A stretch of 43,503 bases of DNA, taken from IMG/VR virus record IMGVR_UViG_3300005525_000046, positions 1 to 43,503 of that record. The stretch is one strand, 5' to 3'. Source of the DNA: a virus. Each line of letters opens with the position of its first letter. Position 1 is the first letter of the stretch. The position numbers were made by a program, and so were the translations under genes. Under the pieces are notes generated by a model, which was not told where the DNA came from, made no database searches, and worked only from the letters and a program-made list of their open reading frames with translations. This document shows positions 1 to 43,503 of the stretch, piece after piece.

Positions 1-1
1 C

Positions 2-2206
2 GTGCTGTTTTCCAGCTATGAGACGATCCCCGGCCCGAACGTCCAGCTCGCGATCGAACAGCTCAAGGACTACGCGGACACGATGGTCCTCCGGGCCGGG
101 GACGTGAGCATCGGGCCACTGACCCTTGGGCACACGGCGCAGGTCCCGGTCGGCGCTTCCAACGAAGCCACCCCGCAGTTTCAGGCGCACGGGACTGCCT
201 TCATCGGGCAGGGGTCTTATCGGTGGTCCGCGAACGCGGCCGGCCCGAATATCTCGCTGTTCAAGTCCCGCGGCGCCGCCATCGGCACGCGCGCGGCCGT
301 CCAGTCCGGGGACGCTCTGGGCTCGGTCACATTCTACGGTGACGACGGCACGAACGCACCCCCGGGCGCGCAGCTCCGCGCGATGGTGGACGGAACGCCC
401 GGCGCGGGCGACATGCCCGGCCGGCTGGAGTTCCTGACGACCTCGGACGGCGCGGCCGCCCCCGTTGTCCGCTGGTCGGTCTATTCGACCGGGCACATGA
501 CGCCCTTCGTGGACAACGCCTATAACCTCGGCTCGGCGTCCCTGCGCGCCGCGAACGTCTTCTCGGCGCTCGGCAGCTTCGGCAACCTGACTGCGTCCGG
601 CAACGACCTGATCGCAGCCGGCGGCACCGCAAACGCCGCGCAGTGGGCTGTCTTCCGGAACGCGAACGTCGGCGCCTCGGCCACGATCGGCCTCCTGTTC
701 GGGAACGACGGCTCGGCGTCGCAGGCCGGTGTCTTCGTCAACTCCAGCGCCAAGACCGACTTCGGGGGCGCAAGCTCCATCAACATCGGCAACTACGGCG
801 CTGCCGGCCTCGGGTTCTTCACGAACAACACCTTCCGGGGCGGCTTCAACTCGGCGGGCATGTTCACCGCGCTTGGCGACTTCCAGCAGGGCCACGCGAC
901 GCAGGTCCCGCTCGGCGCGTCAAACTCGTTCACCCCGTCGTCGCAGTTCCATAGCACGGTCGGCATTAGCAGCTTTTCGCGCTGGTCGAACGACAACGGC
1001 GGCCCGCAGATGGGCTTCTTCAAGTCGCGCGGCACGGCCATCGGCACGCGCGGGCTGGTCGCCGCTGACGATACGATCTTCAGCCTGTCCGGCTACATTG
1101 ACGACGGCACGAACGCACCGCCCGCCGCGATGATCCGCGCCAACGTGGACGGCACGCCGGGCGCTGGCGACGCCCCCGGCCGCCTGTCCTTCTGGACAAC
1201 GCCGGACGGCGGCGTGAACCTTGTCGAGCGGATGCGGATCAACAACGCCGGCCGCATTCAGATGATGGTTGACCTGTCGGTCGGCTTCGCGTCCTACCCT
1301 GCCGCCGCGGTGAAGCTCCACGTCGGCGGCGTCGCAGCCGCTACAACCCCGACCCTCGGCGCCGCGACCGGCATCGCCGCCTTGTTCAGCAACACGGACG
1401 CCGCCTACGGCCTCGCCCTCGGCGTCGGCGGGGCTGGCAATGCCTGGCTCCAGGTGCAGCGCGTGGACGCCGTGGCAACAGCCTATCATCTGCTGCTCCA
1501 GCCGAGCGGCGGCTTCGTCGGTATCGCCCTCGGCGCCAGCCCGACCTCACCCCTCCAGATCGCCAGCGCCGCCGCGCGCGTCACGCCCGCAGGTGGCTAC
1601 CTTGTCCAGAGCTTTGGCGGCGGCAACTCCTACTGGCTCCTGAGCGCCAACACGAATTTCAACTCGGCCATCCACTTCGGAGACCCGGACAGCAACACCG
1701 TCGGCCGCATCGAATATGTCCACAACGGCGACCGCATGGAGTTCCACGTCGCGGGGAGCGAACGCCTCCGCATCGAGGCGGCCACCATCACGGTGAACAT
1801 CCCGGCCACGCTGCCCAACGGCGCGTCCAGGACCGCGGCTGTCCGGACCGGCACGTCGAACGAGGCGATCAGCACCAAGACGGCTTATGACGCGGCGGCC
1901 TATGTCGCGCTCACCGACGCCGCGACGATTGCCTGGGACATGAGCCTCGGCATCAACTTCAGCGTGACGCTGGCCGGCAACCGCACCCTCGGCGCTGTCA
2001 CCAACACCGTCGCCGGCAAGACCGGCTCGATCCTGGTCTATCAGGACGCAACCGGCGGGCGGACCCTCGCCTTCAACGCGGTCTACAAGTTCGCCAACGG
2101 CGTGGCCCCGACCCTGGACACGGTCGCCAACCGGCTGACGATGCTGTTCTACCAGGTCATCGACAGCTCGAACATCTTCATCAGCCACGCCGCGGGTGTC
2201 CGCTGA
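2..2206 (+). CDS. Tail fibre / appendage protein, probably truncated at the window edge
   Basis: A GTG lies at base 2, but no ribosome site is visible and the reading frame may continue upstream, so I treat the 5' end as probably missing. The 734 residues are rich in Gly, Ala, Asn and Thr, as in phage appendages. Two copies of a block of about 100 residues occur (about 44-150 and 299-405), each with VPxGASN, FKSRGxAIGTR, DDGTNAPP and VDGTPGAGD. The C-terminus (about 630-734) has a beta-rich pattern common at fibre ends. It sits next to a second tail gene whose ATG overlaps this stop (TGATG). The receptor-binding role is inferred from composition and position; no family was recognised with certainty. 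Confidence 0.75.
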   Translation: MLFSSYETIPGPNVQLAIEQLKDYADTMVLRAGDVSIGPLTLGHTAQVPVGASNEATPQFQAHGTAFIGQGSYRWSANAAGPNISLFKSRGAAIGTRAAVQSGDALGSVTFYGDDGTNAPPGAQLRAMVDGTPGAGDMPGRLEFLTTSDGAAAPVVRWSVYSTGHMTPFVDNAYNLGSASLRAANVFSALGSFGNLTASGNDLIAAGGTANAAQWAVFRNANVGASATIGLLFGNDGSASQAGVFVNSSAKTDFGGASSINIGNYGAAGLGFFTNNTFRGGFNSAGMFTALGDFQQGHATQVPLGASNSFTPSSQFHSTVGISSFSRWSNDNGGPQMGFFKSRGTAIGTRGLVAADDTIFSLSGYIDDGTNAPPAAMIRANVDGTPGAGDAPGRLSFWTTPDGGVNLVERMRINNAGRIQMMVDLSVGFASYPAAAVKLHVGGVAAATTPTLGAATGIAALFSNTDAAYGLALGVGGAGNAWLQVQRVDAVATAYHLLLQPSGGFVGIALGASPTSPLQIASAAARVTPAGGYLVQSFGGGNSYWLLSANTNFNSAIHFGDPDSNTVGRIEYVHNGDRMEFHVAGSERLRIEAATITVNIPATLPNGASRTAAVRTGTSNEAISTKTAYDAAAYVALTDAATIAWDMSLGINFSVTLAGNRTLGAVTNTVAGKTGSILVYQDATGGRTLAFNAVYKFANGVAPTLDTVANRLTMLFYQVIDSSNIFISHAAGVR

Positions 2207-3162
2207 TGATCCCGGGACTTGGTGGTATTCTCGGGGGTGTGCGCCGGCCGGTTCTCCGGCCGACGCTGGTCCTGTCCACGACGGCGGGGCAGGTCTGGCG
2301 GGCGTTGGACGGCTACAACTTCGGCGCCCTCCAGGCGGCGTCCGGCCTGCCCGTCACGTTTCCCTCGGTCCACACGCTGCGGCACAACGGGACCCGGTTC
2401 CTCTTTGGTGGCCCGGTCGTGACCACAGGCGTTGCTGCCTGCTACACGTCCCTCGACGGCCTCGCTTTCGCCAGCCAGGCGACGTCACCGATCGACATCA
2501 CGGCGCCCGGCGTGGTGACATGCCTGGATGGGTCTGGGGGGTTCTATGCGGTCTTCCCCACGACCTCGGGCGTTGTCACCGACCGGAGTGCGTCTTCCCC
2601 GGACGGGCAATCCCCCTGGACCGCCGGGACCGACGTCCCGAACGGAACCGCGGCGGCCCGCGCGATCGCGCGAGAGCCGGGCCTGGGCATCACCGCCGTC
2701 TTCGGCCAGAGCGGATCGCTCCACACTGCTACTCTGCTCGGCACCTGGACAAGTCGATCCAGCGGCACCGGAAACCAGTTCAACGCGGCGGCGGCGGGCG
2801 GTGGCTACATCGTCGGCGTCGCCTCCGGCGGTGTGATTTCTGCCTCCAGCAACGGCACCAGCTATGCCCTCGCCACATCCGGAACCACGCAGGACCTTCT
2901 GGACGTCATCTGGACCGGGACGCAGTTCCTGGCGTGCGGCTCCACCGGCAACACGTTGATCCGCGCCGCCAACCCCACCGGCACCTGGACGGCAGTCTCG
3001 CTCGGCGCGGGGTTCACCCGGCTCTGCCGCAACGGCGACTATGTCTATGCGTTCGGCCAGAACAACGTGTTTATTTCGTTCGATTTCGGGACGAATTGGC
3101 TGGACATCACGGCCAACCTCACCGGCTACGGCCCCAGCACTTTCGCCAACCAGGCGGCTTGA
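2206..3162 (+). CDS. Tail-associated beta-propeller-like protein
   Basis: The 318 residues carry repeated short beta-strand units such as SLDGLAF, WTAGT, GTWTS, WTGTQFLACG, GTWTAVSLG and FGTNWLDIT. This spacing is typical of BNR/sialidase-like or YCF48-like propellers found in phage tails. There is no signal peptide or membrane segment. The start codon overlaps the stop of the fibre gene, so the two are probably translated together and may assemble together. The fold is inferred from the repeat pattern alone. An enzymatic (glycan-hydrolase) function cannot be assigned, because no catalytic residues are recognisable. Confidence 0.6.
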   Translation: MIPGLGGILGGVRRPVLRPTLVLSTTAGQVWRALDGYNFGALQAASGLPVTFPSVHTLRHNGTRFLFGGPVVTTGVAACYTSLDGLAFASQATSPIDITAPGVVTCLDGSGGFYAVFPTTSGVVTDRSASSPDGQSPWTAGTDVPNGTAAARAIAREPGLGITAVFGQSGSLHTATLLGTWTSRSSGTGNQFNAAAAGGGYIVGVASGGVISASSNGTSYALATSGTTQDLLDVIWTGTQFLACGSTGNTLIRAANPTGTWTAVSLGAGFTRLCRNGDYVYAFGQNNVFISFDFGTNWLDITANLTGYGPSTFANQAA

Positions 3163-3164
3163 CC

Positions 3165-3317
3165 ATGAGCGGCGCCTTCCCCCTGGAGGTTCAACGCCTG
3201 ATCGTGGAGCTGGTGGTCACGCTCGTCGGGCTTGCGGTCCTGGGGGCTTTGCTTTTATTCGTCCTCAATACGGGCAAGCGCATCAGGACACAGGACGAAG
3301 ACCATGATCCTCGATAA
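3165..3317 (+). CDS. Single-span membrane peptide of the lysis cassette
   Basis: This 50-residue protein has one strongly hydrophobic helix (about residues 12-35, LIVELVV through LLLFVL) followed by a charged tail ending DEDHDPR. It starts two bases after the stop of the tail gene and overlaps the start of the endopeptidase gene by 14 bases. Membrane location is clear from the sequence. A holin or antiholin role is plausible because it directly precedes the endolysin, but a two-span holin-like protein follows at 3718, so its function is open. It is too short to be found by standard length cut-offs. Confidence 0.6.
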   Translation: MSGAFPLEVQRLIVELVVTLVGLAVLGALLLFVLNTGKRIRTQDEDHDPR

Positions 3318-3705
3318 CGCATCCAAGTCCAGGCTCAAGGGTGTCCACCCGGACCTGATCCGGGTTGTCCACCGCGCCGCCGAGCTGATGTCCGACCCGG
3401 ACTTCACCTTCGCCATCACCTGCGGCGTCCGGACCCTTGCGGAGCAGCGCGTGCTCTACGCCAAGGGCGCCACCCGCACCCTCCGGTCCCGGCACATCCC
3501 CGGCAAGGACGGCACGTCCAAGGCCGTGGACTTCGTGGTCAAGCTGAACGGCAAGGTCCGCTGGGACTGGCCGCTCTATTCCCAGCTCGCGAAGGTCGTG
3601 AAGCAGGCGGCGAAGGACGTGAAGGTGCCGATCGAGTGGGGCGGCGACTGGAAGACCTTCAAGGACGGGCCGCATTTCCAGCTCCCCCACGCAAAATATC
3701 CCTGA
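3304..3705 (+). CDS. Endolysin, M15-family peptidoglycan L-Ala-D-Glu type endopeptidase
   Basis: The 133-residue protein resembles VanY/M15 endopeptidases used by phages to cut peptide cross-links of the cell wall. Visible motifs are R43 in ITCGVRT, H64 and D76 in the SRHxxG...SKAVDF block (zinc ligands of the HxxGxAxD type), the PIEWGGDW segment with E111, and H124 in DGPHFQL. The zinc triad is complete. The ATG at 3304 was chosen because the protein begins there like its family, and the longer upstream extension is low-quality. There is no signal peptide, so export to the wall would depend on a holin. The gene is followed closely by the holin-like gene and the spanins. Confidence 0.88.
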   Translation: MILDNASKSRLKGVHPDLIRVVHRAAELMSDPDFTFAITCGVRTLAEQRVLYAKGATRTLRSRHIPGKDGTSKAVDFVVKLNGKVRWDWPLYSQLAKVVKQAAKDVKVPIEWGGDWKTFKDGPHFQLPHAKYP

Positions 3706-3717
3706 CAGGAGCCAGCC

Positions 3718-3888
3718 ATGAACAAGGAAACCATCTTCGGCGTGATCCGCCACATCCTCACCTTCGGCGGCGGCATTCTCGCCTCCAAGGGCATCCTGGA
3801 CGCCGGTCTGGTCGAGCAGGCCGCGGGCGCGATCATCACGATTGCCGGCATCGCCTGGTCCATCATCGAGAAGCGCAAGGCGGCTTGA
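3718..3888 (+). CDS. Holin-like protein (Pam3-gp28-like)
   Basis: The 56-residue protein has two hydrophobic segments (about residues 12-27 and 33-50) joined by a short turn and ends with a basic tail, EKRKAA. Its opening, MNKETIFGVIRHIL, resembles small putative holins of the Pam3-gp28 type. A good ribosome site (CAGGAG) lies nine bases upstream. It sits between the endopeptidase and the spanins, the expected place for a holin. Holins form membrane lesions that release or activate the endolysin; that role is inferred from topology and neighbours. Confidence 0.75.
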   Translation: MNKETIFGVIRHILTFGGGILASKGILDAGLVEQAAGAIITIAGIAWSIIEKRKAA

Positions 3889-3892
3889 CGTC

Positions 3893-5228: not shown

Positions 5229-5908
5229 GCCAGCCTTTCGACCGGAGCTTCCTGAAGGACACGATCATCGCGCTGCCGCAGACGGTGACGATGTCGGCCG
5301 ACGGCTACATTCCGGTCATCACCATCGTCGCGGGCGAGCTGTTCGTCCGGCGCATCACGCCCGACGACTTCAAGTCCGTCGTGGCCGGCGGCGTGTCGAG
5401 CGTCTTCGGGCGTCAGGGCACGGTCATCGCCCAGGCCGGCGACTACGCCCTGGCCGACATCACCGGGCTCGTCGCTGCGCTCGCCGGCAAGTCCAACACC
5501 GGCCACGGCCACGCGCAGTCCGACATCACGAACCTTGTCGCGGACCTCGCGGCGCTTTCGTCCGCCATAGCCGCCAAGGCGGCCCTGTCCCTTGTCCAGC
5601 CCGACGCGATCACCGGCCCCGCCAACCTGACCGGGCAGGCCCAGAACGTCACCGTCGAGAGCGCCGACTTCACCTTCACCAACGCCGATACGACCGGCGT
5701 CTATTCCCTGACGGTGCGCTCCAGCATCGCCGCCGCGAACGCCGAAATCCGCGTCAACGGGCTTGGGTCCTGGAGCCAGCACGTCAACATCCGCCACAGC
5801 GACGTCCTGCGCCTGCGGATGCTCACGGCCAACGCGCCCGCCACCCAGCGCGTCGCGACGATCTACACGCCCGGGCGGAATTTCACCTGGGCCACGACGA
5901 CGACATGA
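5225..5908 (+). CDS. Short tail fibre protein
   Basis: The 227 residues include the segment VFGRQGTVIAQAGDYALADI (about 60-79), a very common element of phage tail fibres, followed by helical heptad-like repeats (ITGLVAALAGKS, ITNLVADLAALSSAI) suited to a trimeric coiled coil. The C-terminal 90 residues look beta-rich. The GTG start overlaps the preceding stop (GTGA) and the stop overlaps the terminase start (ATGA), so this tail gene is translationally linked to the packaging genes. Fibre identity is well supported by the motif; the ligand is unknown. Confidence 0.75.
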   Translation: MSQPFDRSFLKDTIIALPQTVTMSADGYIPVITIVAGELFVRRITPDDFKSVVAGGVSSVFGRQGTVIAQAGDYALADITGLVAALAGKSNTGHGHAQSDITNLVADLAALSSAIAAKAALSLVQPDAITGPANLTGQAQNVTVESADFTFTNADTTGVYSLTVRSSIAAANAEIRVNGLGSWSQHVNIRHSDVLRLRMLTANAPATQRVATIYTPGRNFTWATTTT

Positions 5909-7500
5909 GCAAGCCCAATCCCCACCTCAAGCCTGTCTCGGTGTCGCCCGAGACCCGCGCGCTCCGCGCGATCGAGCGCCTGGTCGCCGCCGACAAGGCG
6001 CGCGAAGACCTGCTTTCGTTCACCAAGCTGGTCATGCCGCACCCCGACGACAGCGACAACACCCAGCGGTCCCTCTACGAGGACGCGCGGCATCACCGTG
6101 TGATCGCGGCGGCGCTGGAGGAAGTCGAGGCTGGCCGCTACAAGCGCCTCATCATCAACTGCCCCCCGCGCCACGGTAAGACCGAGCTGGCGTCCAAGAA
6201 ATTCCCGGCCTGGTATGCCGGCCGTCACCCCGAACACTCGATCATCTTCGGCACTTACAACGAGAAATACGCTGGCGACATCGGCCGCGCTGTCCGGGAC
6301 ATCGTCCAGTCGGCGGCTTACCAGCAGGTGTTCGAGGGCGTCCACCTGAAGGACGGCTCCGCGGCCGTGGACCGACTGGAGACGATGGCCGATGGCGTCC
6401 TCGCCTTCGTCGGCCGAGGCGGCACGACCACCGGCCGCGGCGGGCATCTTCTCATCATCGACGACCCGATCAAGGACCGCCGGGAAGCCAACTCGCCCAC
6501 GATCCGCGACCAGCTCTGGACATGGTTCACGCAGGTCATCGGCACCCGCATGATGACCCAGGATGCGCGCGTGGTCATCATTCAGACCCGCTGGCATGAG
6601 GACGACCTGGTCGGCCGGCTGACCGATCCGGGCAACGACTATTACGACCCCGAGGAAGCGGCCCAGTGGAAGATCATCGACCTGCCGGCGCTGGCCCTGG
6701 AGGGCGACCCCCTCGGGCGCAAGCCCGGCGAAGCTCTCTGGCCGGAGCGGTTCGACCGCGGCTTCCTGCTTGAGCAGCAGCGCCGCGACACGGCAGGCTT
6801 CGCGTCCCTCTACCAGGGCCGGCCGACGCCCGACGGCGGCGCGTTCTTTCAGTCCGAGTGGCTGAAGACCTACAAGCCGAACGAGCTGCCGAAGAACCTG
6901 CGGTTCTACATCGCTTCCGACCATGCCGTGTCCCAGCTCCAGAACCGGGACAAGACCTGCCTCATCCCGGTCGGCGTGGACGAGAACGACGACATTTATG
7001 TCCTGCCGGACGTGTGGTGGCGCCAGGGCTCGGCGGACCAGGCGGTGGACGCCATGCTGGCGCTGATCCAGCGATACAAGCCCATCTATTGGTGGGCGGA
7101 ACGCTCGCACATTTCCAAGTCCATCGGCCCGTTCCTCCGCAAGCGGATGCTGGAGGAAGGGCTGTTCTGTGCCGTCTGCGAGGTCATCCCGATCGCGGAC
7201 AAGCAGACCCGCGCCCAGTCGATCCAGGGGCGCATGGCGATGGGGAAGGTTTTCTTCCCCGAGCGCGCGCCGTGGTGGCCCGAGGCCCGCGACCAGATCG
7301 TGAAGTTTCCGGGCGCGGCCCACGACGACTTTGTGGACGCGCTCGCCTACGTCGGCCTGGGCATGAACTACCTGATTTCCGCTGGTCCGATCCGACACGG
7401 CGCTGACCGCTACCGCCCAGGCACCTATGGGGCGCTCATGCACGAGAGCAACCGGACCCGGCGCGAAAACGCCCGAGCCCGCAGCAATGGAGGCTGGTGA
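5905..7500 (+). CDS. terL: Terminase large subunit
   Basis: The 531-residue packaging motor has an N-terminal ATPase with Walker A CPPRHGKT (86-93), Walker B LLIIDDP (182-188) and a C-terminal RNase H-like nuclease with acidic residues D339 (YIASDH), E399 (WWAER) and D475/D478 (HDDFVDAL). All expected catalytic residues are present. It cuts and pumps DNA into the prohead through the portal encoded just downstream. No small terminase subunit could be recognised beside it; the adjacent upstream gene is a tail fibre. The terminase stop overlaps the portal start region (TGATG). Confidence 0.95.
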   Translation: MSKPNPHLKPVSVSPETRALRAIERLVAADKAREDLLSFTKLVMPHPDDSDNTQRSLYEDARHHRVIAAALEEVEAGRYKRLIINCPPRHGKTELASKKFPAWYAGRHPEHSIIFGTYNEKYAGDIGRAVRDIVQSAAYQQVFEGVHLKDGSAAVDRLETMADGVLAFVGRGGTTTGRGGHLLIIDDPIKDRREANSPTIRDQLWTWFTQVIGTRMMTQDARVVIIQTRWHEDDLVGRLTDPGNDYYDPEEAAQWKIIDLPALALEGDPLGRKPGEALWPERFDRGFLLEQQRRDTAGFASLYQGRPTPDGGAFFQSEWLKTYKPNELPKNLRFYIASDHAVSQLQNRDKTCLIPVGVDENDDIYVLPDVWWRQGSADQAVDAMLALIQRYKPIYWWAERSHISKSIGPFLRKRMLEEGLFCAVCEVIPIADKQTRAQSIQGRMAMGKVFFPERAPWWPEARDQIVKFPGAAHDDFVDALAYVGLGMNYLISAGPIRHGADRYRPGTYGALMHESNRTRRENARARSNGGW

Positions 7501-27309: not shown

Positions 27310-27831
27310 TCACCGTTCCGTTCGGTCGTTTGCGGCCGGGGGGTTCGGAGCCGTGGCGGCCTGCTTGCGCCGGGTCTTGCGGTTGGGCTTCGCCTGTGAC
27401 GACGCGGCGGTCGGGCTCGGACCGGGCGCCGGGGCCTGCTCCTGCTTGATGACCATCTTCGTCTGGACAACCGTCCAAGGGGCCTTGTCCCCGAACCGGG
27501 CTTCGACCTTGATTTCCCCCGGCGTCGCCAGCGGCAGCTCGGCGTTCGGCAGGGTGAAGGCTACCGAGCCCCGGCGGCGGAAGTCCACCGGGACGTCCAG
27601 CTCGATCGGCGGGCGGTCGGCCGGCGTCGTGATCCGGACCTTCAGGGGCACACGCCCCGGGCCGGTGGTCCGCAGCTCGAACCAGACCGAGACACGGATC
27701 GCCGCGGGGAACATGGGGACGACGATGTCGTCCCCGATGACACCCACAAGGACGTCGCGGCCGTTGTCCAGGCGGAGAACCTGGTCGCAGAGGACCACGT
27801 TGGACAGAACGTGGTGGGCGGGCTTGGTCAT
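27310..27831 (-). CDS. Phage protein, possibly DUF6941-like beta domain
   Basis: The 173-residue product starts MTKPAHHVLSNVVLCDQVLRLDNGRDVLVGVIGDDIVVPMFPAAIRVSVWFELR, a beta-sandwich-like pattern that recalls the small DUF6941 family ('LCDxV...L.GV'), followed by further strands to about residue 125 and a basic, proline-rich disordered tail (QAKPNRKTRRKQAA). It is the last gene of the leftward operon, with ATG overlapping the end of the GcrA gene (ATGA). No enzyme motif is present. The family link is tentative and the function unknown. Confidence 0.6.
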   Translation of the reverse strand: MTKPAHHVLSNVVLCDQVLRLDNGRDVLVGVIGDDIVVPMFPAAIRVSVWFELRTTGPGRVPLKVRITTPADRPPIELDVPVDFRRRGSVAFTLPNAELPLATPGEIKVEARFGDKAPWTVVQTKMVIKQEQAPAPGPSPTAASSQAKPNRKTRRKQAATAPNPPAANDRTER

Positions 27832-28313
27832 GTCTTCTTCCTTTCGGGACGCGGCGTGTAAGCCAGCCGCAGGTGATAGGCGCAGTATGGCGCCATGCTC
27901 TCATGGTGGGCGGTTGGGTTCCCACAACAGAGAAGGGTCAGCCCTGCCCCGGAAGCGGGCCACTGGCAGGCTTTCCGGGGGAGGGACAGGAACGGCACGT
28001 CCAGGGACGGCGGGGCGTCCTCCAGCCGCGGCAGCTCAACAGGCTTCAGGACCACGGCGGCCTTGCGGACGGCGCCCCTGACGCCCTTGACGCCGGTCGG
28101 GTTGCCCTTGGCGCGGCGCGTCGCCCGGAGCGTGATGGCGCCCTCGGAAGCCTTGCCGGAGCCGGGCGCGATCTGGGTGGACATGCCCATGCGGTGCAGC
28201 TTGCCGATGATCGTGTTCCGGGTGACGCCGAACTCTCGGGCGATAGCCCCGGAAGACCAGTTCTCGGCCACCAGCTTCTTCAGGGTTTCCACCCTCTCGG
28301 CTGTCCAGCTCAT
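27828..28313 (-). CDS. gcrA: GcrA-family cell-cycle transcription regulator
   Basis: ATG 28313 gives 161 residues beginning MSWTAERVETLKKLVAENWSSGAIAREFGVTRNTIIGKLHRMGM, almost the signature N-terminal DNA-binding domain of GcrA (helix-turn-helix about 20-44). The C-terminus keeps the other conserved block: CQWP..., CCGNP, and YCAYHLRLAYTP. In Caulobacter, GcrA binds sigma-70 RNA polymerase and acts at promoters carrying GANTC methylated by CcrM. A GGGGGGAG site precedes the start. It sits in the early operon between unknown genes, with ATGA overlaps on both sides. Because this phage genome has no GANTC site, its targets are probably on the host chromosome (inference). Confidence 0.88.
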   Translation of the reverse strand: MSWTAERVETLKKLVAENWSSGAIAREFGVTRNTIIGKLHRMGMSTQIAPGSGKASEGAITLRATRRAKGNPTGVKGVRGAVRKAAVVLKPVELPRLEDAPPSLDVPFLSLPRKACQWPASGAGLTLLCCGNPTAHHESMAPYCAYHLRLAYTPRPERKKT

Positions 28314-28783: not shown

Positions 28784-29007
28784 TGCACACTCCCGGTCCG
28801 GAGCCAGCGGCGAAGGCTGGCCCGAAGGTTGAGGGTGGCGCGCGGATCGAGCGCGCCGCTGCCGGCGTGGACGATGGTCTCGGTCTCACGCCCGTCGGGG
28901 GCGCGGAGCGTGACCTTCAGGTGTTTGCCCCCGGGGCGGCTTCTGACCACCTCCAGGCCCAGACGGTCGAAGACACTTCTGACTTCTCGGTTCACTCTCA
29001 TGGTCAT
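28780..29007 (-). CDS. Small basic early protein (HicA-like pattern)
   Basis: The 75-residue protein reads MTMRVNREVRSVFDRLGLEVVRSRPGGKHLKVTLRAP and ends LNLRASLRRWLRTG. The helix-strand layout with GGKHLKV is reminiscent of the small double-stranded-RNA-binding-like fold of HicA, but the catalytic context is not convincing and no HicB partner lies beside it. Two starts are possible: ATG 29007 (ATGA overlap with the polymerase stop) or ATG 29001, better spaced from GGAAAGG. It is very basic, so nucleic-acid binding is plausible. Confidence 0.55.
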   Translation of the reverse strand: MTMRVNREVRSVFDRLGLEVVRSRPGGKHLKVTLRAPDGRETETIVHAGSGALDPRATLNLRASLRRWLRTGSVQ

Positions 29008-30923
29008 CCTTTCCGGTAGCGGGGGCCGGCCCATCCGGCGGCGGCGACGGGCAGGCCCGGCGCCCAGGAGGGCGTCATGCCGAGCACGTCGAGCATGAGT
29101 TGAAGGGTGTCGTCGGCGTCGGCCTGATCGGCTTCCGCGATCAACTCGTCGTGGACAGTCAGCCGGGTGTCCACGTCCTGCCGGTCCAGCTCCAGCATGG
29201 CGTCGGCCATGACGTCGCGAGCGATGGCCTGGGTGATGTTCTCGGCCAGCTTGCCGCCATAGGTCCGGATGCGGGTCCACTTCCGGGTGTATTGGTTGAC
29301 GCCCCAGTAGGTGATGGCGTCCCGTCCCTGCTCGCGGTCCCACTCCATGCCGATGCCGCGATAGACAAGGTCCCGCCCCGAAGGCAGGCGGATCAGCATG
29401 GTGGCGCCGCGGCGCCGGAACGACACCGGCCCGACGTGGATCGGCCCCTTGTCGCCTGAAGCGATGTCTCGCGCGGCGGCGTCGCAGTTCCACCAGAAAT
29501 CGCAGATGGCCGGGTTCTCGCCGCGCCACGCATAGACATGGCCCTGGGCCTCCAGCGGGGTGAGGCTCATCCCGTAGGTCTTGGCCGTGTCCTGGAACTT
29601 GTTCGGCCCCATGCCGAAGCCGCAGGCGAGGACCAGAACCTTGCCGAGCTGGCGGTCGGTCGAGCCGACCTTGGCGGCGGTGTAGACATAGACGTCCTCG
29701 CCGCGGGCGAAGACGTCCAGGATGTCCTGTTGCCCGCCGAGCCAGGCAATCACGCGCGCCTCGATCTGGGCGAGGTCGGCGCTGACCAGAAGGTTCCCAG
29801 GGCTCGCGACCAGCGTGCCGCGGAGGCAGGAGGCCACCACGCCGAGGGCGCTGTCTTCAAAGAACAGCTCCAGGGCGTCGGCGTCGAGCCCGGCCATGAC
29901 GCCCTCGATTGCCCTGTCCACGTTCTTGATCGTGGGGCGGGGAAGGTTCTGCGGCTGGAAGATGCGCCCGGCCCACCGGCCGGTGCGGCTCGCGCCGTAG
30001 TGCTGGAGCAACCCATAGAGCTGCCCGTTGAAGGCGCCCTTCTGGAGCGACGAGAGCTTGGCGGTCGAGGCGCGCGCGGCCTCCCGGCGGACCTGGAGGA
30101 TGTCGCGCTCCAGGGACGGCGCCGGGTCCAGCTCCTTCAGGCGGGCGCGGATCGTGTCCTTCTGGAGGTTGTCGTGCGGGTAGCCGGCGGCCTTGGCGAA
30201 GGCGAGAACCTGGGACGTCTGGTTGGGCGACGTGACCGTGCCCTTCGTGACGACGTGCATCCGCTGGGCGAGCTGAGCCTGGGCTTGCTTCGTGACGGCC
30301 TGGAGCTTGGCGGCCAGCTCCAAGTCCACCGAGACGCCGCGCTCGTTGATCCGCTTGTCCAGGAGCCAGATGGATCGTTCACGTGCCGGCATGGGCGGGA
30401 GCTTCGCCGCGATGGCTTCCTCCACGTCCACGTCGGTCTCGCAGTAGGCGACCAGCCGGTCCAGCTTCGCCGGGTCCTGCTCGTGCCACCACGTCCCGTC
30501 CGGGCGCGGCTTGCACATTTGGAGCATGAGCCGGTGGCCGGCCGCGTCCTTCTGGGTGGCGAGGTTGAGAGCTTCGGCGGCCTGTTCGAGTTTGAGCGGG
30601 AGCCCCCAATAGGCGGCCCTCGCCATCGTGTCGTCCAGTTGCTCGCGGGTCAGCCGGGGGCCATAACGGAACACTTCGTTCCAAATCCAGAACTCGAACT
30701 CGGCGTTCCAGGCCCGGACCGGTTTGCCGTCGTGGACGTGCTGGAACAGCCGGGCGGGGGGCAGCGATTGCCCGATCCGCCAGGATTGGACCGGCTCGCC
30801 GTCGAACTTCCAGGCGAGACAGAGGACCAGCGTGCTCGGGTCCCGGGCGTAGGGGATCACCCCCGTCCGGCGCAGGTCGCACTTGCTGGCCGTCTCAAAG
30901 TCGATGGAAACGCCCTGGGTCAT
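29004..30923 (-). CDS. polA: Family A DNA polymerase with 3'-5' exonuclease
   Basis: The 639-residue replicative polymerase has an exonuclease domain (about 1-175) with D8 and E10 in SIDFETA and Y160-x3-D164 in YCETD, then the polymerase domain with motif A SADLAQIEAR (D383), motif B R424...K428 through G437, and motif C VHDEL (D592). Catalytic aspartates are present. In the O-helix the residue equivalent to E. coli Phe762 is Leu432, and the Tyr766 equivalent is Phe436. There is no 5'-3' exonuclease domain, as usual in phage enzymes. It works with the ssDNA-binding protein and primase-helicase encoded nearby. No clear ribosome site precedes the ATG. Confidence 0.93.
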   Translation of the reverse strand: MTQGVSIDFETASKCDLRRTGVIPYARDPSTLVLCLAWKFDGEPVQSWRIGQSLPPARLFQHVHDGKPVRAWNAEFEFWIWNEVFRYGPRLTREQLDDTMARAAYWGLPLKLEQAAEALNLATQKDAAGHRLMLQMCKPRPDGTWWHEQDPAKLDRLVAYCETDVDVEEAIAAKLPPMPARERSIWLLDKRINERGVSVDLELAAKLQAVTKQAQAQLAQRMHVVTKGTVTSPNQTSQVLAFAKAAGYPHDNLQKDTIRARLKELDPAPSLERDILQVRREAARASTAKLSSLQKGAFNGQLYGLLQHYGASRTGRWAGRIFQPQNLPRPTIKNVDRAIEGVMAGLDADALELFFEDSALGVVASCLRGTLVASPGNLLVSADLAQIEARVIAWLGGQQDILDVFARGEDVYVYTAAKVGSTDRQLGKVLVLACGFGMGPNKFQDTAKTYGMSLTPLEAQGHVYAWRGENPAICDFWWNCDAAARDIASGDKGPIHVGPVSFRRRGATMLIRLPSGRDLVYRGIGMEWDREQGRDAITYWGVNQYTRKWTRIRTYGGKLAENITQAIARDVMADAMLELDRQDVDTRLTVHDELIAEADQADADDTLQLMLDVLGMTPSWAPGLPVAAAGWAGPRYRKG

Positions 30924-30948: not shown

Positions 30949-31629
30949 TCAGGGGCATGTGCGCCCCCGATCGGCCTGGATCGCCGGGTGGTTAGCCGCG
31001 AACACCGCGCGCGCGAAGCCGAGGGGCGCCGCGCTGCGCACGTTGCCCCGGTCCTTGGACGGCGGGGTCTTGTGGATGCGATCGTCTGGAGGGCCGAGCG
31101 AGGGGTCGGGCCGGGGTGGTGGCATCAGGAAGCCGTTGCCGCACCAGATGCACGTCTTCTTGGTGTAGTTATCCCGCGGCTCCCATCCGGTATAGTCGGA
31201 CGGGTTGAAGTAGTGGTCAGGTTTGCCGATATGTGGCACCCCGGACATGACGCCAACGGGGTTCTCGGCCACCCACCGGCAACCGTGCCACTCGGCCGCA
31301 GCGCGCCCAGCTTCAAAAAGCTCCAACGCCTCACGTAGCAGGTAGCCGCGTTTTTTCGCGAAATCGCGGGCGCCAGACACGGCGACGTGCGTGCAGGGTG
31401 ACTGGTTGACCAGCAAGTCGAACCGGAGCCCGCGCGGAGGTGTCCAGGACCGGATGTCTCCCCAGACAAAACGAATGGCCCCCGCGCCAACCTTGACGAC
31501 CTTGTCGCGGCGGATGGAGTGCTGGATGTCCACACACCAGCACTCATATCCAGCCTCAGCCCAGGGGCGGACCATGTTGCCGGTGAGGTCGCACAATGAA
31601 ACAACGTAACCGATCGGCTTAGTTGGCAC
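30949..31629 (-). CDS. Small phage cytosine-C5-type DNA methyltransferase
   Basis: Starting at GTG 31629 (GGAGG six bases upstream), the 226-residue protein has the SAM-binding motif SLCDLTGNMVRPWAEAGYEC, the catalytic loop NQSPCT with Cys79, the ENP motif (E122-N123) and a late RSAAPLGFARAV motif. These match the compact phage cytosine methyltransferases. It is much shorter than typical C5 enzymes and has little room for a target-recognition domain; a C160-x2-C163 pair could bind metal. It probably modifies phage DNA cytosines or nucleotides for restriction avoidance; specificity cannot be read from the sequence. It overlaps the DUF5664 gene by 11 bases. Confidence 0.8.
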   Translation of the reverse strand: MPTKPIGYVVSLCDLTGNMVRPWAEAGYECWCVDIQHSIRRDKVVKVGAGAIRFVWGDIRSWTPPRGLRFDLLVNQSPCTHVAVSGARDFAKKRGYLLREALELFEAGRAAAEWHGCRWVAENPVGVMSGVPHIGKPDHYFNPSDYTGWEPRDNYTKKTCIWCGNGFLMPPPRPDPSLGPPDDRIHKTPPSKDRGNVRSAAPLGFARAVFAANHPAIQADRGRTCP

Positions 31630-37690: not shown

Positions 37691-38158
37691 ATGAGCTATA
37701 ATCCCACCCGCAGACTTCCGCCCTCGGGCGGTCGGACAGGCATAGAACGACTTGAGCTTCAGGAGTTCGGGCGCAAGCTCCAGGGGCTTCTCAACGCCAA
37801 GGGCATGTCCAAGAGCGACCTCGCCCGATTGATATGGGGCGAGACGCAGGACAGCAGAGGGCGCACCGTCGCCCGTAATCGTGACCGCATTTCCCAGTAT
37901 GTCGCGGGCAGGGGTTTCCCCGAACCCCAGAACCTCGCCCGCATGGCGGAAGCCCTCGACGTGCCGGTGGAAGAGTTGGCCCCGGACATCGTCGCGTCCA
38001 CCGTGGACCGGGAAGACCCCGCCATCCAGATGACCGCCGTCGCCGGGCACATGGACAAGGTCTATCTGCGGGTTAACACGCTGGTCTCCATGACTGTTGC
38101 TGCGCAGGTGATCGGGCTCCTGAGCGGCGACCCCGTCGTCCTGGATGCGTCCCGGTGA
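37691..38158 (+). CDS. CI-like phage repressor (XRE helix-turn-helix)
   Basis: The 155-residue protein has an XRE-type helix-turn-helix: ELQEFGRKLQGLLNAKGMSKSDLARLIWG, an inserted loop ETQDSRGRTVARNRD, and RISQYVAGRGFPEPQNLARMAEALDVPVEELAP (about 22-100). There is no S24/LexA-like peptidase domain after it, so SOS-driven self-cleavage is not expected; induction would use another route. The short C-terminal part (AVAGHMDKVYLRVNTLVSMTVAAQVIGLL) may dimerise. It is divergent from the Cro-like gene and leads the integration genes, with a GTGA overlap to the excisionase-like gene. Confidence 0.8.
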   Translation: MSYNPTRRLPPSGGRTGIERLELQEFGRKLQGLLNAKGMSKSDLARLIWGETQDSRGRTVARNRDRISQYVAGRGFPEPQNLARMAEALDVPVEELAPDIVASTVDREDPAIQMTAVAGHMDKVYLRVNTLVSMTVAAQVIGLLSGDPVVLDASR

Positions 38159-38478
38159 CGAGCCTTCTGACACAGGACGAAGTGGCTAAGGTTCTCCGGT
38201 GTTCGACGGCCAAAGTCGCCCGGCTCCGTCGAGACGGTGCCCTGAAGTTCATCCCCGGGCGGCCGGTCCTGATCCCGCTCGCCTCGGTCCTCGACTACGT
38301 GAACCGTGAGACGAAACGATGCAGACCAAACTCGTCAGGAACGACCGCAACTATTGGGAAATCCGCTGGGCCGAGAAGGGGCCAGACGGGGCGTGGACCA
38401 CGCGCCGCGTCTCGACTAGGACAGCTCACAAGCAGGAAGCGGAGGCTTTCCGCCGCGCTTGGCTCCGCGAAGAGCTGA
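38155..38478 (+). CDS. Excisionase-like helix-turn-helix protein with basic extension
   Basis: Residues 1-55 (LLTQDEVAKVLRCSTAKVARLRRDGALKFIPGRPVLIPLASVLDYV) form a MerR-like HTH_17 domain, as in many recombination directionality factors. It starts at GTG 38155, overlapping the repressor stop, and is followed by the integrase. The frame then continues 50 more residues of Arg/Ser/Gly-rich sequence, overlapping the integrase start by 160 bases. The extension may be only read-out of the integrase frame. DNA binding is well supported; the excisionase role is from position. Confidence 0.7.
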   Translation: MTSLLTQDEVAKVLRCSTAKVARLRRDGALKFIPGRPVLIPLASVLDYVNRETKRCRPNSSGTTATIGKSAGPRRGQTGRGPRAASRLGQLTSRKRRLSAALGSAKS

Positions 38479-39356
38479 ACGACATCAGGACCCAGGACCA
38501 CGCGCCGGACATCGGGGTTCTCGTGGGCGCCTACCAGAAACATCATGTGACCGCGAACGGCGTGGCCGACGCGCAGGTGTTCTCCCTGAAGCCGGTCCTG
38601 GCCTATGTCCAGGCCCAGGGCTCGGTCCTGGAAGACCTTGCTGACCCCGAATGGTCGCTGGACTACCGGGCGCACCGGGCCAGTCTCGGCCGGAAAGACG
38701 GCACGATCCGGCGCGAGCTTGGCGCCCTGGTGGCCGCCCTCAACTGGTGCGCCCGCATGAGGAAGATCAGCAAGGATCAGGTCCCGGACCTGGCGTTGCC
38801 GGCCGCGGGGCGTGCCCGCGAGCTGTTCATGGACGAGACCCAGGAGAGCGAGTTTTACGCGCGGGCCATGGGTGTCTCGATAGGGCTCCCCAGGCTGGCG
38901 CGGATCACCCGGTTCGTGGCGCTCGCCCTGGACACGGCGGCCCGGAAGGCTGCGATCCTGGGTTTGACCTGGGATCGGGTTGACCTCGGCGCCCGGATGA
39001 TCGACTTCCGGGACCCCCTGGTCCGGGCGACCAAGAAACGCCGGATCGTGGTGCCGATTTCGGATCGGTTGTTTCACGTCCTTAATCGGGCCAAGCAGGA
39101 AGCGACGAGCCGCTATGTCCTGGACACGCCGGGGCCGATCCGCTGGGAGTGGGACCAGTTCGTGAAAACCACGGGTTCGCCCTGGATGACGCCCCACGTC
39201 TGCCGGCACACATGGGCGACGCTCGGGGTCCGGGCCGGGGTGCCCCTCTGGGACGTGGCCGGTGTCCTCGGGGACACGGTCGAGACGGTGAGCAAGCACT
39301 ACGCGCACCACGCGCCGGATCACCTGCGGGGCGCGATCAACAGGAGGTGGGCGTGA
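38319..39356 (+). CDS. int: Tyrosine-type integrase
   Basis: The 345-residue protein has an N-terminal arm-binding region (RNYWEIRWAEKGPDG...RRVSTRT), a core-binding domain (about 60-165) and a catalytic domain with R209 (DTAARKAAILGLTW), K239 (TKKRRIVVPI), H293-x2-R296 (HVCRH) and nucleophile Y328 (SKHYAHH). The residue usually His in the LGH motif is Asp319. It is complete and should be active. It integrates the phage by recombination between attP and a host site, most likely a tRNA-Val gene given the fragment at 27179-27228. Confidence 0.93.
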   Translation: MQTKLVRNDRNYWEIRWAEKGPDGAWTTRRVSTRTAHKQEAEAFRRAWLREELNDIRTQDHAPDIGVLVGAYQKHHVTANGVADAQVFSLKPVLAYVQAQGSVLEDLADPEWSLDYRAHRASLGRKDGTIRRELGALVAALNWCARMRKISKDQVPDLALPAAGRARELFMDETQESEFYARAMGVSIGLPRLARITRFVALALDTAARKAAILGLTWDRVDLGARMIDFRDPLVRATKKRRIVVPISDRLFHVLNRAKQEATSRYVLDTPGPIRWEWDQFVKTTGSPWMTPHVCRHTWATLGVRAGVPLWDVAGVLGDTVETVSKHYAHHAPDHLRGAINRRWA

Positions 39357-39520: not shown

Positions 39521-39527
39521 CGAAAAA

Positions 39528-39548: not shown

Positions 39549-39631
39549 GAAGTCGGTCATCAGGGGAGGGACGGGGCAGGTCGCACGCGGCTCTCAAACT
39601 GGAGGGCCTTGTGCCTTCCTACGGGTTGGAT

Positions 39632-39663: not shown

Positions 39664-39691
39664 GAACGCGACAAAAGGACCCCTTAAAAGA

Positions 39692-39724
39692 GAACGGCCG
39701 CACTCGTGGGGAGCGCGGCCGTTC
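39692..39724 (+). promoter_or_regulatory. Perfect 10-bp hairpin ahead of the primase gene
   Basis: GAACGGCCGC (39692-39701) pairs with GCGGCCGTTC (39715-39724) around a 13-base loop, ending 33 bases before ATG 39758. In the leader RNA it would form a stable stem, so attenuation or translational control of the primase-helicase is possible. A TTAAAA word just upstream could be a -10, without a good -35. Confidence 0.5.
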
Positions 39725-39757
39725 GGGTCTGGAACCATCAATGACGAGGCTGGATAT

Positions 39758-42058
39758 ATGGCAACGCTGACGAACAAGCAACTGCTGGAGCTGATCTTCG
39801 GGTCCAAGTGGGGGGACGCCTGGGTCCTCGGGTTCCGCGGGGACCCCTACCAAACCAAGGCATGGGGCGGCGGCCGGGCGAGCGTGAAGCTGCCCAAGAT
39901 GACCGATGATATGTGCGCCTACTGGGTCGTGGGCATGATCGCCCCCGGCGAGGTGCGCGCCGCCGGCAACGTGACGGAGGTCCACGCGATCCTGCTGGAC
40001 GACATCGGGACCAAGGCGAAGGAAGCGGACGCCCGCCAGCTTCTCGGGTCGCCAACGGTCTCGCTGGAGACGTCACCCGGCAACTACCAGTGGGTTTACA
40101 AGCTGAAGGCTCCGATTGCGCCGGGGCTGTTCGATCGGATCATGAAGGATTTGTCCGCGCGCGAGCTGCTGGACAAGGGTGTCAAGGATTGCGCGAGGTA
40201 TGCCCGGCTCCCGGTGGGCGTGAACGGCAAGAAGGGCTCCACCTGGGCGGTGCGGGTTGCCGAGCTGAACGAAGAGGTGGTCCTGGACGCGGAAGAGCTG
40301 GCGGGTCGGGTCCTCGGGGTGTCCACGGCGTCGGAGCCCGATGACTACTCGGGTCTCGGGTTCGGTCCGGGCAAGTTCACCGCGGACCTGGGGCGCCCGG
40401 ACCAGTGGCTCGTCGCGCTGGAAGAGCTGGGCCTGGTCAAGGGACCCTCCCATAAAGACGGCGTCGTGGACATCGTCTGTCCGTGGGTCCACGAGCACAC
40501 GGCGCGCGCCGACACCGGGACCTCCTACCTGGGGAGCGGACGGTTCCAGTGCCATCACTCCCATTGCGAGGCCAAGAAGTCCGGCGAGTTCCAGTGTGAA
40601 ATCGTCTCCCGGCTGGAAACGGACGGTGTGACAGCGGGTTTGACCTCGGGGCAGGGGTATCTGGCGAAGCTGGCCTTCACTGATCGCGCCGAGGACGAGA
40701 CGTTGGCGGTGGCGGCGCGGGTCGAGCAGGAAGCCGAGGCGTCCGAGGAACGGGTCGCCGCGGCCTGGGACCAGGTCTTCGATCGGTTCGTCTATGTCCG
40801 GGACGCGGACAGGTTCGTTGACCTCCAGGAGCCGGATATTCTTCTCACAGGGAAGGGCTTCGCCACCATGATCCGGAGCCTCGTGCCGGTGGGGCGCTCG
40901 GGCGAGAAGTCGGCCGAGGCGCAGTTCATCAACAAGGCGCCGGGCCGGTGTCTGGTCCGCCGGCTTGGCTACCAGCCGGGCAAGAGCGTGCTTCCCGACG
41001 GGTCGCGGGTTCTGAACCAGTGGCGGCCGGGGTCGTTGGTCCCCGTGATGGCCGACGAGAACGACGTGAAGCCATGGTTGGATCATCTGGAGCGGCTGGT
41101 CCCTGATCCGGACGCGCGGGAGGTCTATCTGGATTTCCTGTCCTTCATCCTCCAGCACCCGGGCCGCAAGATCGGGTGGGCGATCGTCACCCAGGGCGAA
41201 CAAGGCACCGGCAAGGACACGCTGCTGGCGCCGGTGATCGAGGCGCTCGGGTCCAGCAATGTCCAGTCCATCACGATGGAAGATTTCCGGTCGGGTTGGA
41301 CGCCTTGGCTGAAGGCGCAGCTCATCCTGTTCCAGGAGGTTACGAACTCAGCCAGGTTTGATCTTTACAACGACCTCAAGCCCTTCCTGTCCAGGCCGCC
41401 GGACACGGTCACGGTGCGGGATAAATACGTGTCCCCCTATGCGATCGAGAACAACCAGGTCTGGATGCTCAACACCAACAAATCCAACGCGATTGCGCTG
41501 GAAGGGGGCGACCGCCGGTTCTTCATCTATGCGTCGCCGGCGCAGAAGCCGGGTCCGGCCTATTTCGACGGGTTGTGGACGTGGCTGAAGAATGGCGGCT
41601 CGGCGCAGGTTGCGGGTTTCCTGATGCTCCGGACGATTTCAGCGGGTTTTTCGCCTCATGCCTGCCCGACACCGGCGGCGGCGGTCGCAGCCAAGGCGGC
41701 GATGGCGGTCGAGGCGCTGAACGCGGCGGGGCAGTGGGTGGTTGAGGCGTTTGGGCAGGGGTCCGGCTCGGGTCGGTCGCTTGTCCAGGTGACGGATATC
41801 CTGACTGCGGCTGGCCGGCATGGCGTTCCGGACATGGTGAAGCGGTCGGTCAATCGGGCGTCGGTGCTGGAGGCGCTGCGGGTGATGGGCGCCCGGCAGG
41901 TCCAGGACGGGGCGCAGATCAAGCTCTCGTCCGGCAAGGTGGTGCGGCTCTGGGCGCTGGAACGCGGGGAACTGTTCGATCAAATGCCGCTCGTCCAGGT
42001 GCGTGACCGCTACGAGAAGGAAGCCGGGAATGGGGCTCGGGACGCTTTCGCCGGCTGA
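39758..42058 (+). CDS. Primase-helicase (AEP-like primase plus DUF5906/D5-type SF3 helicase)
   Basis: ATG 39758 was chosen because the longer frame runs through the leader hairpins; it gives 766 residues. The N-terminal half is primase-like: LLDDIG (D81, D82), SPGNYQWVYKL and ARYARLPVGVNG (about 147-158). The C-terminal half is a helicase with Walker A GEQGTGKD (480-487), Walker B LILFQE (522-527), LNTNKSNA (sensor, 571-578) and the arginine motif GGDRRFF. One protein therefore primes and unwinds, as in many phages with family A polymerase and DUF2815/2800 genes. The non-coding region downstream looks like an origin it could act on. Confidence 0.88.
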   Translation: MATLTNKQLLELIFGSKWGDAWVLGFRGDPYQTKAWGGGRASVKLPKMTDDMCAYWVVGMIAPGEVRAAGNVTEVHAILLDDIGTKAKEADARQLLGSPTVSLETSPGNYQWVYKLKAPIAPGLFDRIMKDLSARELLDKGVKDCARYARLPVGVNGKKGSTWAVRVAELNEEVVLDAEELAGRVLGVSTASEPDDYSGLGFGPGKFTADLGRPDQWLVALEELGLVKGPSHKDGVVDIVCPWVHEHTARADTGTSYLGSGRFQCHHSHCEAKKSGEFQCEIVSRLETDGVTAGLTSGQGYLAKLAFTDRAEDETLAVAARVEQEAEASEERVAAAWDQVFDRFVYVRDADRFVDLQEPDILLTGKGFATMIRSLVPVGRSGEKSAEAQFINKAPGRCLVRRLGYQPGKSVLPDGSRVLNQWRPGSLVPVMADENDVKPWLDHLERLVPDPDAREVYLDFLSFILQHPGRKIGWAIVTQGEQGTGKDTLLAPVIEALGSSNVQSITMEDFRSGWTPWLKAQLILFQEVTNSARFDLYNDLKPFLSRPPDTVTVRDKYVSPYAIENNQVWMLNTNKSNAIALEGGDRRFFIYASPAQKPGPAYFDGLWTWLKNGGSAQVAGFLMLRTISAGFSPHACPTPAAAVAAKAAMAVEALNAAGQWVVEAFGQGSGSGRSLVQVTDILTAAGRHGVPDMVKRSVNRASVLEALRVMGARQVQDGAQIKLSSGKVVRLWALERGELFDQMPLVQVRDRYEKEAGNGARDAFAG

Positions 42059-42067
42059 TGGGGTCGA

Positions 42068-42372
42068 GGTAACAGCGGCGGTAACACTGGCTTTTGGGGC
42101 GGTGTGACCGGAAAAAAGTTAGATATAACAATCAGGTAACAGAGTAACTGTTACTTTCTTTGAAACTGATAAAAGGAGATATAGAGAAGAGGGATAGGGG
42201 GTATAGGAGAGGATGGGGAGAGGTGTGAGAGAAGTTGGGTAGAATAGTGTTCGGAGCGGATTTCCACTGTTACCGGTGTTACTGCGTTGATATGACAAAG
42301 AAAAACCGGTCACAGTGGCACTGTGACCGGTCTGTTACCGGTGTTACCGGTCAAGAGAGCAACACTGTGACC
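42068..42372. other. ori: Candidate replication origin with iterons
   Basis: Between two convergent genes, GGTAACA occurs at 42068, 42080 and 42135 on the left and its inverse TGTTACC at 42268, 42333 and 42342 on the right, the last two in exact 9-bp tandem (TGTTACCGG). GTAACAG/CTGTTAC (42136-42142, 42148-42154) forms an inverted repeat. The middle (42167-42251) lacks C entirely on the plus strand and is A/G-rich. Symmetric iterons around an easily melted tract, right after the primase-helicase gene, suggest an origin. No function is proven. Confidence 0.6.
42305..42331. repeat. Perfect 27-base palindrome in the candidate origin
   Basis: Thirteen bases, ACCGGTCACAGTG (42305-42317), are repeated in inverse at 42319-42331 around a single G. 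CACTGTGACC recurs at 42363-42372 and GTGTGACCGG at 42102-42111. This could be a binding site for an initiator or regulator, or a cruciform-forming element. Confidence 0.65.
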
Positions 42373-42440
42373 AGGATTGCGGATGCTGCCAATCCGGCGG
42401 CGGTGTAGAGCGCGGTCCAGGCGGCGGTTCTCCAGGTCAT
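42351..42440 (-). CDS. 29-residue membrane peptide after the CobT-like gene
   Basis: ATG 42440 overlaps the stop of the CobT-like gene in the ATGA manner. The frame reads MTWRTAAWTALYTAAG then LAASAILVTVLLS and ends at 42351, a single membrane helix. It stops one base from the tandem iterons. It resembles in size and layout the peptide at 39419. The ribosome site is poor, so translation would depend on coupling. Function unknown. Confidence 0.45.
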   Translation of the reverse strand: MTWRTAAWTALYTAAGLAASAILVTVLLS

Positions 42441-43503
42441 CGGCGGCGGTCCATGAGGTGGACAAGTTCCGTCATGCCCTGGTCGGCAATCTTGGACAGG
42501 TCGAAGACGTTCGTGGCTCGGGTGAAGGCGTTCTTCACGTTAAACCCGCATCCGATACCGATGAGGTCAACACCGACCCCCGCGGCGTATTTCTCCGCGA
42601 CCTTCACGCCTTCGGCTCCGAGGTTGCACTCTCCGTCTGTGAGGGCGATCACGATCCGCCGATTGAGATGGCGGCGCCCTGCGAGGATCTTGGCGGCCTG
42701 CATGATGCAAACCGTGAGGTTGGTTCCGTCCGGGCAACCCATGCTGCCGATCGTGTCTTTCACATCCTGGGAGCGGGCCTGCTTGTTCCAGGGCTTCACC
42801 ACATTGAGCCGGCCCATGGTGCCGTTGTCGTAGGTCTTCGCGTCCTTGAAACCGGCGATCATGATTTCGGCGCCGGCGTTTTCGATGGCGGTTCCCAGAT
42901 GGATCGCAAGCGCCTTGGCGAAGTCCATGCGGGTGTGGTGGCGACTGCCCATGTCGGACATGCTTGACGATTGGTCGATCAGGAGGACAACACCGGTCGA
43001 GATGCCGGGCTGCTCGTGCCGGCGGGTGAAAACCGACTGGCTTCCCGCTTCGGCGCGGGCAAGGGCACGGCGGTCCAGGCGCCCGGTGGTTTCGTATCGG
43101 GTGCGGTCGATGGTCTCGGGCGCTTTCAGGAGGCGCGCGACTTGGTCGCGTAGCTTGGGCGACTTGGCGATCAGGGCTTCGGCCTCGGCGCCGCGTCCCT
43201 GGTCGCAGCGGGACGCGGTGTCTATTTCGGCCCGACGCCACATGGCGAGGTGCGCCATGCGGCCGTGGCCTGGGTAGGTCTCGTGTGTCTTGTCGAGGTC
43301 GTTCAAGGCTTCGCTGGCGTCCGTGACCATGAGGCCCGGCGTCTCCTGTGCCTGGCCGTTGCCTAGTCCGCCTTTGCGTCCGCCATGCTTCTGGCCCTGG
43401 CTGGGCTTCTGGGAGGGCTGGCCTTCGCCTTCGCCTTCGCCTTCGCCTTCGCCTTCGCCTTCGCCTTCGCCTTCGCCTTCGCCTTCGCCTTCGCCTTCGC
43501 CTT
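42437..43503 (-). CDS. CobT-like VWA-domain protein, N-terminus beyond the window
   Basis: The frame is open to the window edge, so the start is missing. From the edge it reads a (Glu-Gly)n repeat, a Gln/Gly/Lys-rich linker and then a von Willebrand A domain with the metal-site motif LLIDQSSSM (DxSxS, about 42962-42976), DGTNLTVCI and IALTDGECNLG. Phage and bacterial CobT-like proteins pair with an AAA+ CobS-like ATPase; such a gene might lie just outside. No cobalamin role is implied in phages. The acidic repeat is typical of the CobT linker region but unusually regular here. Confidence 0.78.
   Translation of the reverse strand, partial: GEGEGEGEGEGEGEGEGEGEGEGEGEGQPSQKPSQGQKHGGRKGGLGNGQAQETPGLMVTDASEALNDLDKTHETYPGHGRMAHLAMWRRAEIDTASRCDQGRGAEAEALIAKSPKLRDQVARLLKAPETIDRTRYETTGRLDRRALARAEAGSQSVFTRRHEQPGISTGVVLLIDQSSSMSDMGSRHHTRMDFAKALAIHLGTAIENAGAEIMIAGFKDAKTYDNGTMGRLNVVKPWNKQARSQDVKDTIGSMGCPDGTNLTVCIMQAAKILAGRRHLNRRIVIALTDGECNLGAEGVKVAEKYAAGVGVDLIGIGCGFNVKNAFTRATNVFDLSKIADQGMTELVHLMDRRR
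43421..43503. repeat. Tandem hexanucleotide GCCTTC repeat
   Basis: An uninterrupted run of nearly fourteen GCCTTC units reaches the end of the window; it encodes alternating Glu and Gly on the minus strand. Such runs are prone to slippage in steps of two codons, which would change linker length without changing the frame, and they often break assemblies. Confidence 0.9.

Follow-up and report, generated by a model that had tools for sequence, protein, structure and literature searches.

Double-stranded DNA phages are known to lose the recognition sites of orthodox Type II restriction enzymes, the affected palindromes falling below 0.1 of expectation while non-palindromic words are left; temperate phages are reported to show such elimination less often (PMC6286503). 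Depletion of GANTC has been described in about half of the pelagiphages, where it clusters on the phylogeny, and in a SAR11 provirus, and present or past restriction was suggested to underlie it (PMC9516812). Other alphaproteobacterial phages, phiLM21 for example, encode GANTC methylases of their own (PMC5537653). In promoters, GcrA favours the methylated form of GANTC (PMC3667746), and a phage-borne GcrA homologue recognised by Pfam occurs in the phiCbK-like Caulobacter phages, for which an action in trans on host promoters has been proposed (PMC3556154).

The stretch of viral DNA analysed here, 43,503 bp in full and called the window below, shares features with each of these systems (Table 1). 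It has the low palindrome ratios and the retained non-palindromic words of the Type II cases, but its integrase indicates a temperate lifestyle and at least 18 motifs are at zero at once. As in the pelagiphages and the NP1 provirus, GANTC depletion is clustered within a clade and concerns viruses of CcrM-type hosts; in contrast to them, GANTC is at exactly zero in the window, the clade is unrelated, terrestrial-type and temperate, many other sites are gone, and two of its members carry gcrA. With phiCbK, an unrelated phage of 215 kb that keeps many GANTC sites, the window has the GcrA homologue in common. Like the phiLM21-type phages it appears to answer the host GANTC mark, but no GANTC methylase (m6A, related to phiLM21_p027 or to CcrM) was found in the window, where the only methyltransferase is of the phrog_757 family.

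Table 1. Selected features of the window (gene calls are predictions made in the present analysis)
Feature	Position	Strand	Evidence and remarks
Terminase large subunit	5905..7500	+	phrog_38, E 4e-114; marker for the clade tree
gcrA homologue, 161 aa, full-length (DNA-binding and C-terminal sigma-interacting parts)	27828..28313	-	PF07750
Family A DNA polymerase, near gcrA	29004..30923	-	PF00476, 62 bits; neighbourhood conserved in Devosia prophage (synteny)
Small DNA methyltransferase, phrog_757 family	30949..31629	-	phrog_757, E 6e-46
HTH regulator, probable repressor	37691..38158	+	PF13560/PF01381; homologue annotated repressor in Mae-Yong1326-1
Tyrosine integrase	38319..39356	+	PF00589, 40.9 bits
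VWA-domain protein	42437..43330	-	counterparts in Mae-Yong1326-1, Devosia prophage and G356 prophage

GANTC and other words in the window

By exact count GAATC, GACTC, GAGTC and GATTC each occur 0 times in the window, as a preliminary description of this DNA had noticed by eye; its G+C content is 67.2% rather than the roughly 65% given there. The expected number of GANTC sites is 132 with independent bases, in agreement with the hundred or more estimated earlier, and 198, 122 and 58 under Markov models of order 1, order 2 and maximal order, so that zero is not expected under any of them. Low-order Markov models overestimate such words in GC-rich phages, and other words of the form xyNy'x' come out low too: the observed/expected ratio (O/E) of TCNGA is 0.46 by order 2 and 0.99 by synonymous shuffling. 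Because of this bias the Markov nulls alone were set aside and we used a synonymous-codon shuffle that preserves every protein and the codon usage of each gene (42 predicted genes, 40.7 kb). Here the expectation is 51.4 ± 5.6, with a minimum of 37 among 100 shuffles. One-mismatch neighbours of the motif are common in the window (GANTT 97, GANTG 67, GANGC 304, AANTC 104). A near-identical phage, on a contig of another metagenome, is GANTC-free too (observed/expected 0/50 for L004 and 0/27 for L080).

Within the predicted genes GANTC is avoided in all three codon phases. Serine following Asp or Glu is encoded by AGY in 35 of 35 cases and never by TCN, whereas elsewhere 505 TCN codons stand against 151 AGY (77% TCN). 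After a codon of the form xGA, NTC accounts for 0 of 11 NTN codons, compared with 1865 of 3045 in other positions, and G-ANT-C contexts number 0. The loss is total throughout coding interiors; GANTC avoidance is selection at the DNA level, acting via synonymous choice genome-wide.

The absence of GANTC thus stands, but it is one among many absences that the preliminary description overlooked. GTAC is also at 0, with expectations of 36–67 across the nulls (67 on the synonymous null), and about 20 palindromic 6-mers are missing from the window altogether. These include GTCGAC (expected 38), GGGCCC (25), CTGCAG (25), GAGCTC (20), CAGCTG (20) and CTCGAG (19), as well as GGATCC, TGGCCA, AGGCCT, ACGCGT and AGCGCT, among others, while CGATCG, GGCGCC, GCCGGC, GACGTC and CCATGG are among the palindromes found at expectation. 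The loss is confined to palindromic words, 16 of the 34 palindromic 6-mers with an expectation of at least 5 being at zero compared with 32 of the 1,430 that are not palindromic. Among the latter, most of the words listed have GTAC or GANTC inside them, the main exceptions being CTCCTC/GAGGAG (0 of 31 expected) and GAGATC/GATCTC (0 of 20 expected). The first of these pairs resembles a Shine-Dalgarno core and may be avoided as such a core inside genes, or else as a Type IIS site. GANTC, GTAC and many palindromic 6-mers have an O/E below 0.1. The zero for GANTC is not special: GANTC, GTAC and the palindromes together bear the hallmark of site elimination under orthodox Type II restriction.

The terminase clade and its hosts

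In the terminase tree, built from 77 rows, the window falls in a clade of 16 (SH-aLRT 99) whose members have a GANTC O/E of mostly 0–0.14, with the exception of the Devosia prophage and a contig of identical terminase (0.25–0.40) and of a 4-kb fragment (0.86). Rows outside the clade mostly have 0.6–0.9, and the GANTC state changes at least four times on the tree. Summed over 12 clade members there are 47 GANTC sites against 421 expected, 10 of the 12 lying below 0.15. Where testable, the clade has lost CTCGAG, GAGCTC, CTGCAG and GGATCC just as consistently as GANTC, and GTAC is lost in only some members. Most members are fragments, and gcrA status is known for four: the window, the Devosia and G356 prophages, and Mae-Yong1326-1. 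GANTC loss is a trait of this terminase clade and not of gcrA carriers.

Mae-Yong1326-1 (OP028995.1), a Microcystis phage labelled as a broad-range cyanophage, with 72% GC and an integrase, has one GANTC site and no gcrA. It keeps CAGCTG (observed/expected 62/28) and TGGCCA (36/33) and has lost CCATGG (0/30) and GACGTC (0/28), both of which the window retains; its lost set overlaps that of the window but differs from it, and such differences among relatives are as expected of different restriction exposures. The phage is syntenic with prophages of Devosia and of another rhizobial-order genome, and it may in truth infect an alphaproteobacterium present in the cyanobacterial cultures. Its counterpart of the VWA-domain protein is annotated CobT-like and adjoins a CobS-like ATPase.

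The syntenic prophage in Devosia sp. 66-22 (contig MKUZ01000023, about 18.5–66.6 kb) has gcrA in the corresponding place near the DNA polymerase gene and contains 19 GANTC sites, 0.39 per kb against 1.16–1.38 in host DNA. A role of these residual sites as promoter elements was ruled out, almost all of them lying within ORFs. A second syntenic prophage, at about 571–613 kb of genome G356, which belongs to the same rhizobial order as Devosia, has 22 GANTC in 42 kb, lower than its flanks; it has no gcrA of its own, the single gcrA of the genome being about 1.5 Mb distant. Depletion is shared within the clade, and in the Devosia lineage, where one of the relatives resides, 21 of 21 genomes encode CcrM, as identified by its RAMA domain (PF18755). 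Since relatives sit as prophages in Devosia and G356, with CcrM in the Devosia relatives, we infer that the host of the window itself is likely to be an alphaproteobacterium. No tRNA genes were found in the window that might serve as a further clue to the host.

Rhizobium phage RHph_N65, which lies outside the clade, has 4 GANTC sites and has lost mainly GANTC, GGGCCC, AGGCCT and CCCGGG. It has no full GcrA; an ORF of 70–80 aa on the minus strand (L003:29098-29330) is like the C-terminal sigma-interacting part only, at an E-value of 6.5e-5 that lies under the curated cut-off. In a neighbouring terminase clade GTAC is at 0 in all 11 members, and GATC (about 1.3–1.5) and CCGG (about 1.6–1.9) are over-represented; a search for hosts of the sister terminase clade found nothing close in 398 genomes of the phylum or in the named phages. 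In the first 25 kb of Pelagibacter phage HTVC010P we find CTNAG at 0 against 81 expected (order 2) and GANTC near normal (43/56), and in the first 25 kb of Burkholderia phage KL1 the Dam-type site GATC is nearly eliminated (2 against 75 expected).

Possible restriction and non-cleaving pressures on GANTC

We suggest, with a probability of about 0.7, that the missing GANTC belongs to a broad elimination of Type II sites by purifying selection in a temperate, most likely alphaproteobacterial phage. The loss is palindrome-restricted, all-or-none and relative-specific, which matches the orthodox Type II pattern (PMC6286503). Incoming phage DNA lacking methylation at these sites would be cut by endonucleases of the host pool, and each site would cost fitness wherever it is located. 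For GANTC the likeliest agents would be HinfI-like endonucleases, which hosts methylating with CcrM may tolerate, their chromosome being protected by CcrM already. Avoidance of a GANTC-specific restriction enzyme had been offered in the preliminary description as a second option beside a role of gcrA. Restriction does fit better, because GTAC and the palindromic 6-mers are eliminated too, but it is not directed at GANTC only, and the enzyme and the host named here are candidates.

The phrog_757 methyltransferase matches 1,480 phage records, several of them annotated as cytosine methylases, and by this annotation of its relatives it is putatively cytosine-type. It has no BLASTP similarity to the GANTC methylase phiLM21_p027 and is absent from the close relatives examined; as a guess, it may protect some of the retained palindromes. 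A modified-base genome was also considered and rejected: the N-terminal domain of a dATP/dGTP diphosphohydrolase (PF18909) was found, but no adenylosuccinate synthetase among the Pfam-scanned genes.

Some points count against restriction. The known CcrM enzymes are orphans, and it is not apparent why many palindromic 6-mers survive. The window has an integrase and integrated relatives, yet temperate phages are reported to eliminate sites less often. Finally, SAR11 genomes are without recognisable R-M systems, yet their phages lose GANTC (PMC9516812). It is possible, and we put this forward tentatively, that the CcrM mark serves as a self/non-self label. Widespread nucleases or sensors acting on unmethylated GANTC would need no partner methylase because CcrM protects the chromosome, and whole phage clades may so have purged GANTC.

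The pelagiphage losses would also suit a pressure specific to GANTC that involves neither cleavage nor gcrA, in which the sites on replicating phage DNA titrate, or are misread by, the CcrM/GcrA of the host, with repression or effects of hemimethylation as the cost. GANTC is moreover the most widely testable lost motif of the clade. However, CcrM and GcrA do not recognise CTCGAG, GAGCTC, CTGCAG and GGATCC, whose loss is equally consistent where testable, and most other alphaproteobacterial phages hold GANTC at an O/E of about 0.4–0.9. We therefore regard a non-cleaving pressure of this kind as unlikely.

The gcrA gene and GANTC loss

The gcrA gene is present where it had been reported earlier, its product matching PF07750 with 83.1 bits (cut-off 26.9) over positions 1–153 of the 155 in the profile and aligning over residues 1–160 with the Caulobacter GcrA of entry 7ye1. 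The motif TRNxxIGKxHR and the C-terminal C/WP/YC/H residues are common to it and to the GcrA of the Devosia host. Both regions align with the Caulobacter protein; binding of methylated GANTC and of sigma70 is putative. The gene lies in a minus-strand cluster with genes for the polymerase, an ssDNA-binding protein, a DUF2800 protein (whose counterpart in Mae-Yong1326-1 is annotated as a RecB-family exonuclease) and a helicase.

According to the preliminary description the phage would carry gcrA to drive a host cell-cycle programme, and would have rid itself of GANTC to keep its own DNA hidden from GcrA and CcrM. Such a scenario is in keeping with the full-length GcrA and its conserved DNA-binding and sigma-binding parts, with the presence of gcrA in the Devosia prophage, and with the zero count, by which no phage promoter is a methylated-GANTC target. 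The two traits nevertheless separate in both directions. GANTC is lost without gcrA in Mae-Yong1326-1 and the G356 prophage, and in RHph_N65 with at most the C-terminal-like mini-ORF; gcrA occurs without such loss in phiCbK (79 GANTC, maximal-order O/E 0.76, first 50 kb counted) and, with its 19 sites, in the Devosia prophage. Scanning the collection with a two-row GcrA alignment (a five-row alignment was too divergent) gave five further gcrA viruses, and gcrA viruses outside the clade (six IMG/VR contigs and phiCbK) keep GANTC at a maximal-order O/E of 0.35–0.77. GTAC and the missing 6-mers, which have nothing to do with CcrM, are lost to the same degree, and since the purge runs through coding interiors a promoter-only explanation by GcrA fails. 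The proposed link between gcrA and the purge thus finds no footing in these comparisons, and we consider it highly improbable. Chance, base composition, mutation bias or an assembly artefact can be dismissed with near certainty: low-order models do overestimate these words, but each of the 100 shuffles gave at least 37 sites, serine codons switch from TCN to AGY after Asp and Glu, and the absence is repeated in the contig from another metagenome and in many relatives.

Restriction-site elimination leaves the function of the phage GcrA as a separate matter. None of the window's own promoters contains GANTC, there being none anywhere, and since GcrA prefers the methylated promoter motif these promoters are not canonical targets. 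An action in trans, of the kind suggested for phiCbK, is plausible for the protein, which would probably be an early regulator of host sigma70 promoters with methylated GANTC. Elsewhere, a second gcrA in a bacterial genome (G338:C1:1016507-1016911) lies about 3 kb from a distant phage-terminase homologue, suggesting another gcrA-carrying prophage.

GANTC depletion in pelagiphages (PMC9516812) and gcrA in phages (PMC3556154) are already published; new here are the complete loss of GANTC, the number of co-eliminated sites, the temperate clade and the separation of the loss from gcrA. The two traits, seemingly joined in one genome, are separate, and GANTC loss is embedded in a very broad site elimination. 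A temperate clade in which elimination is near-total, and whose partly depleted relatives reside in rhizobial-order genomes, is unusual against the rule for temperate phages; the question of whether the CcrM mark serves immunity becomes tractable in it.
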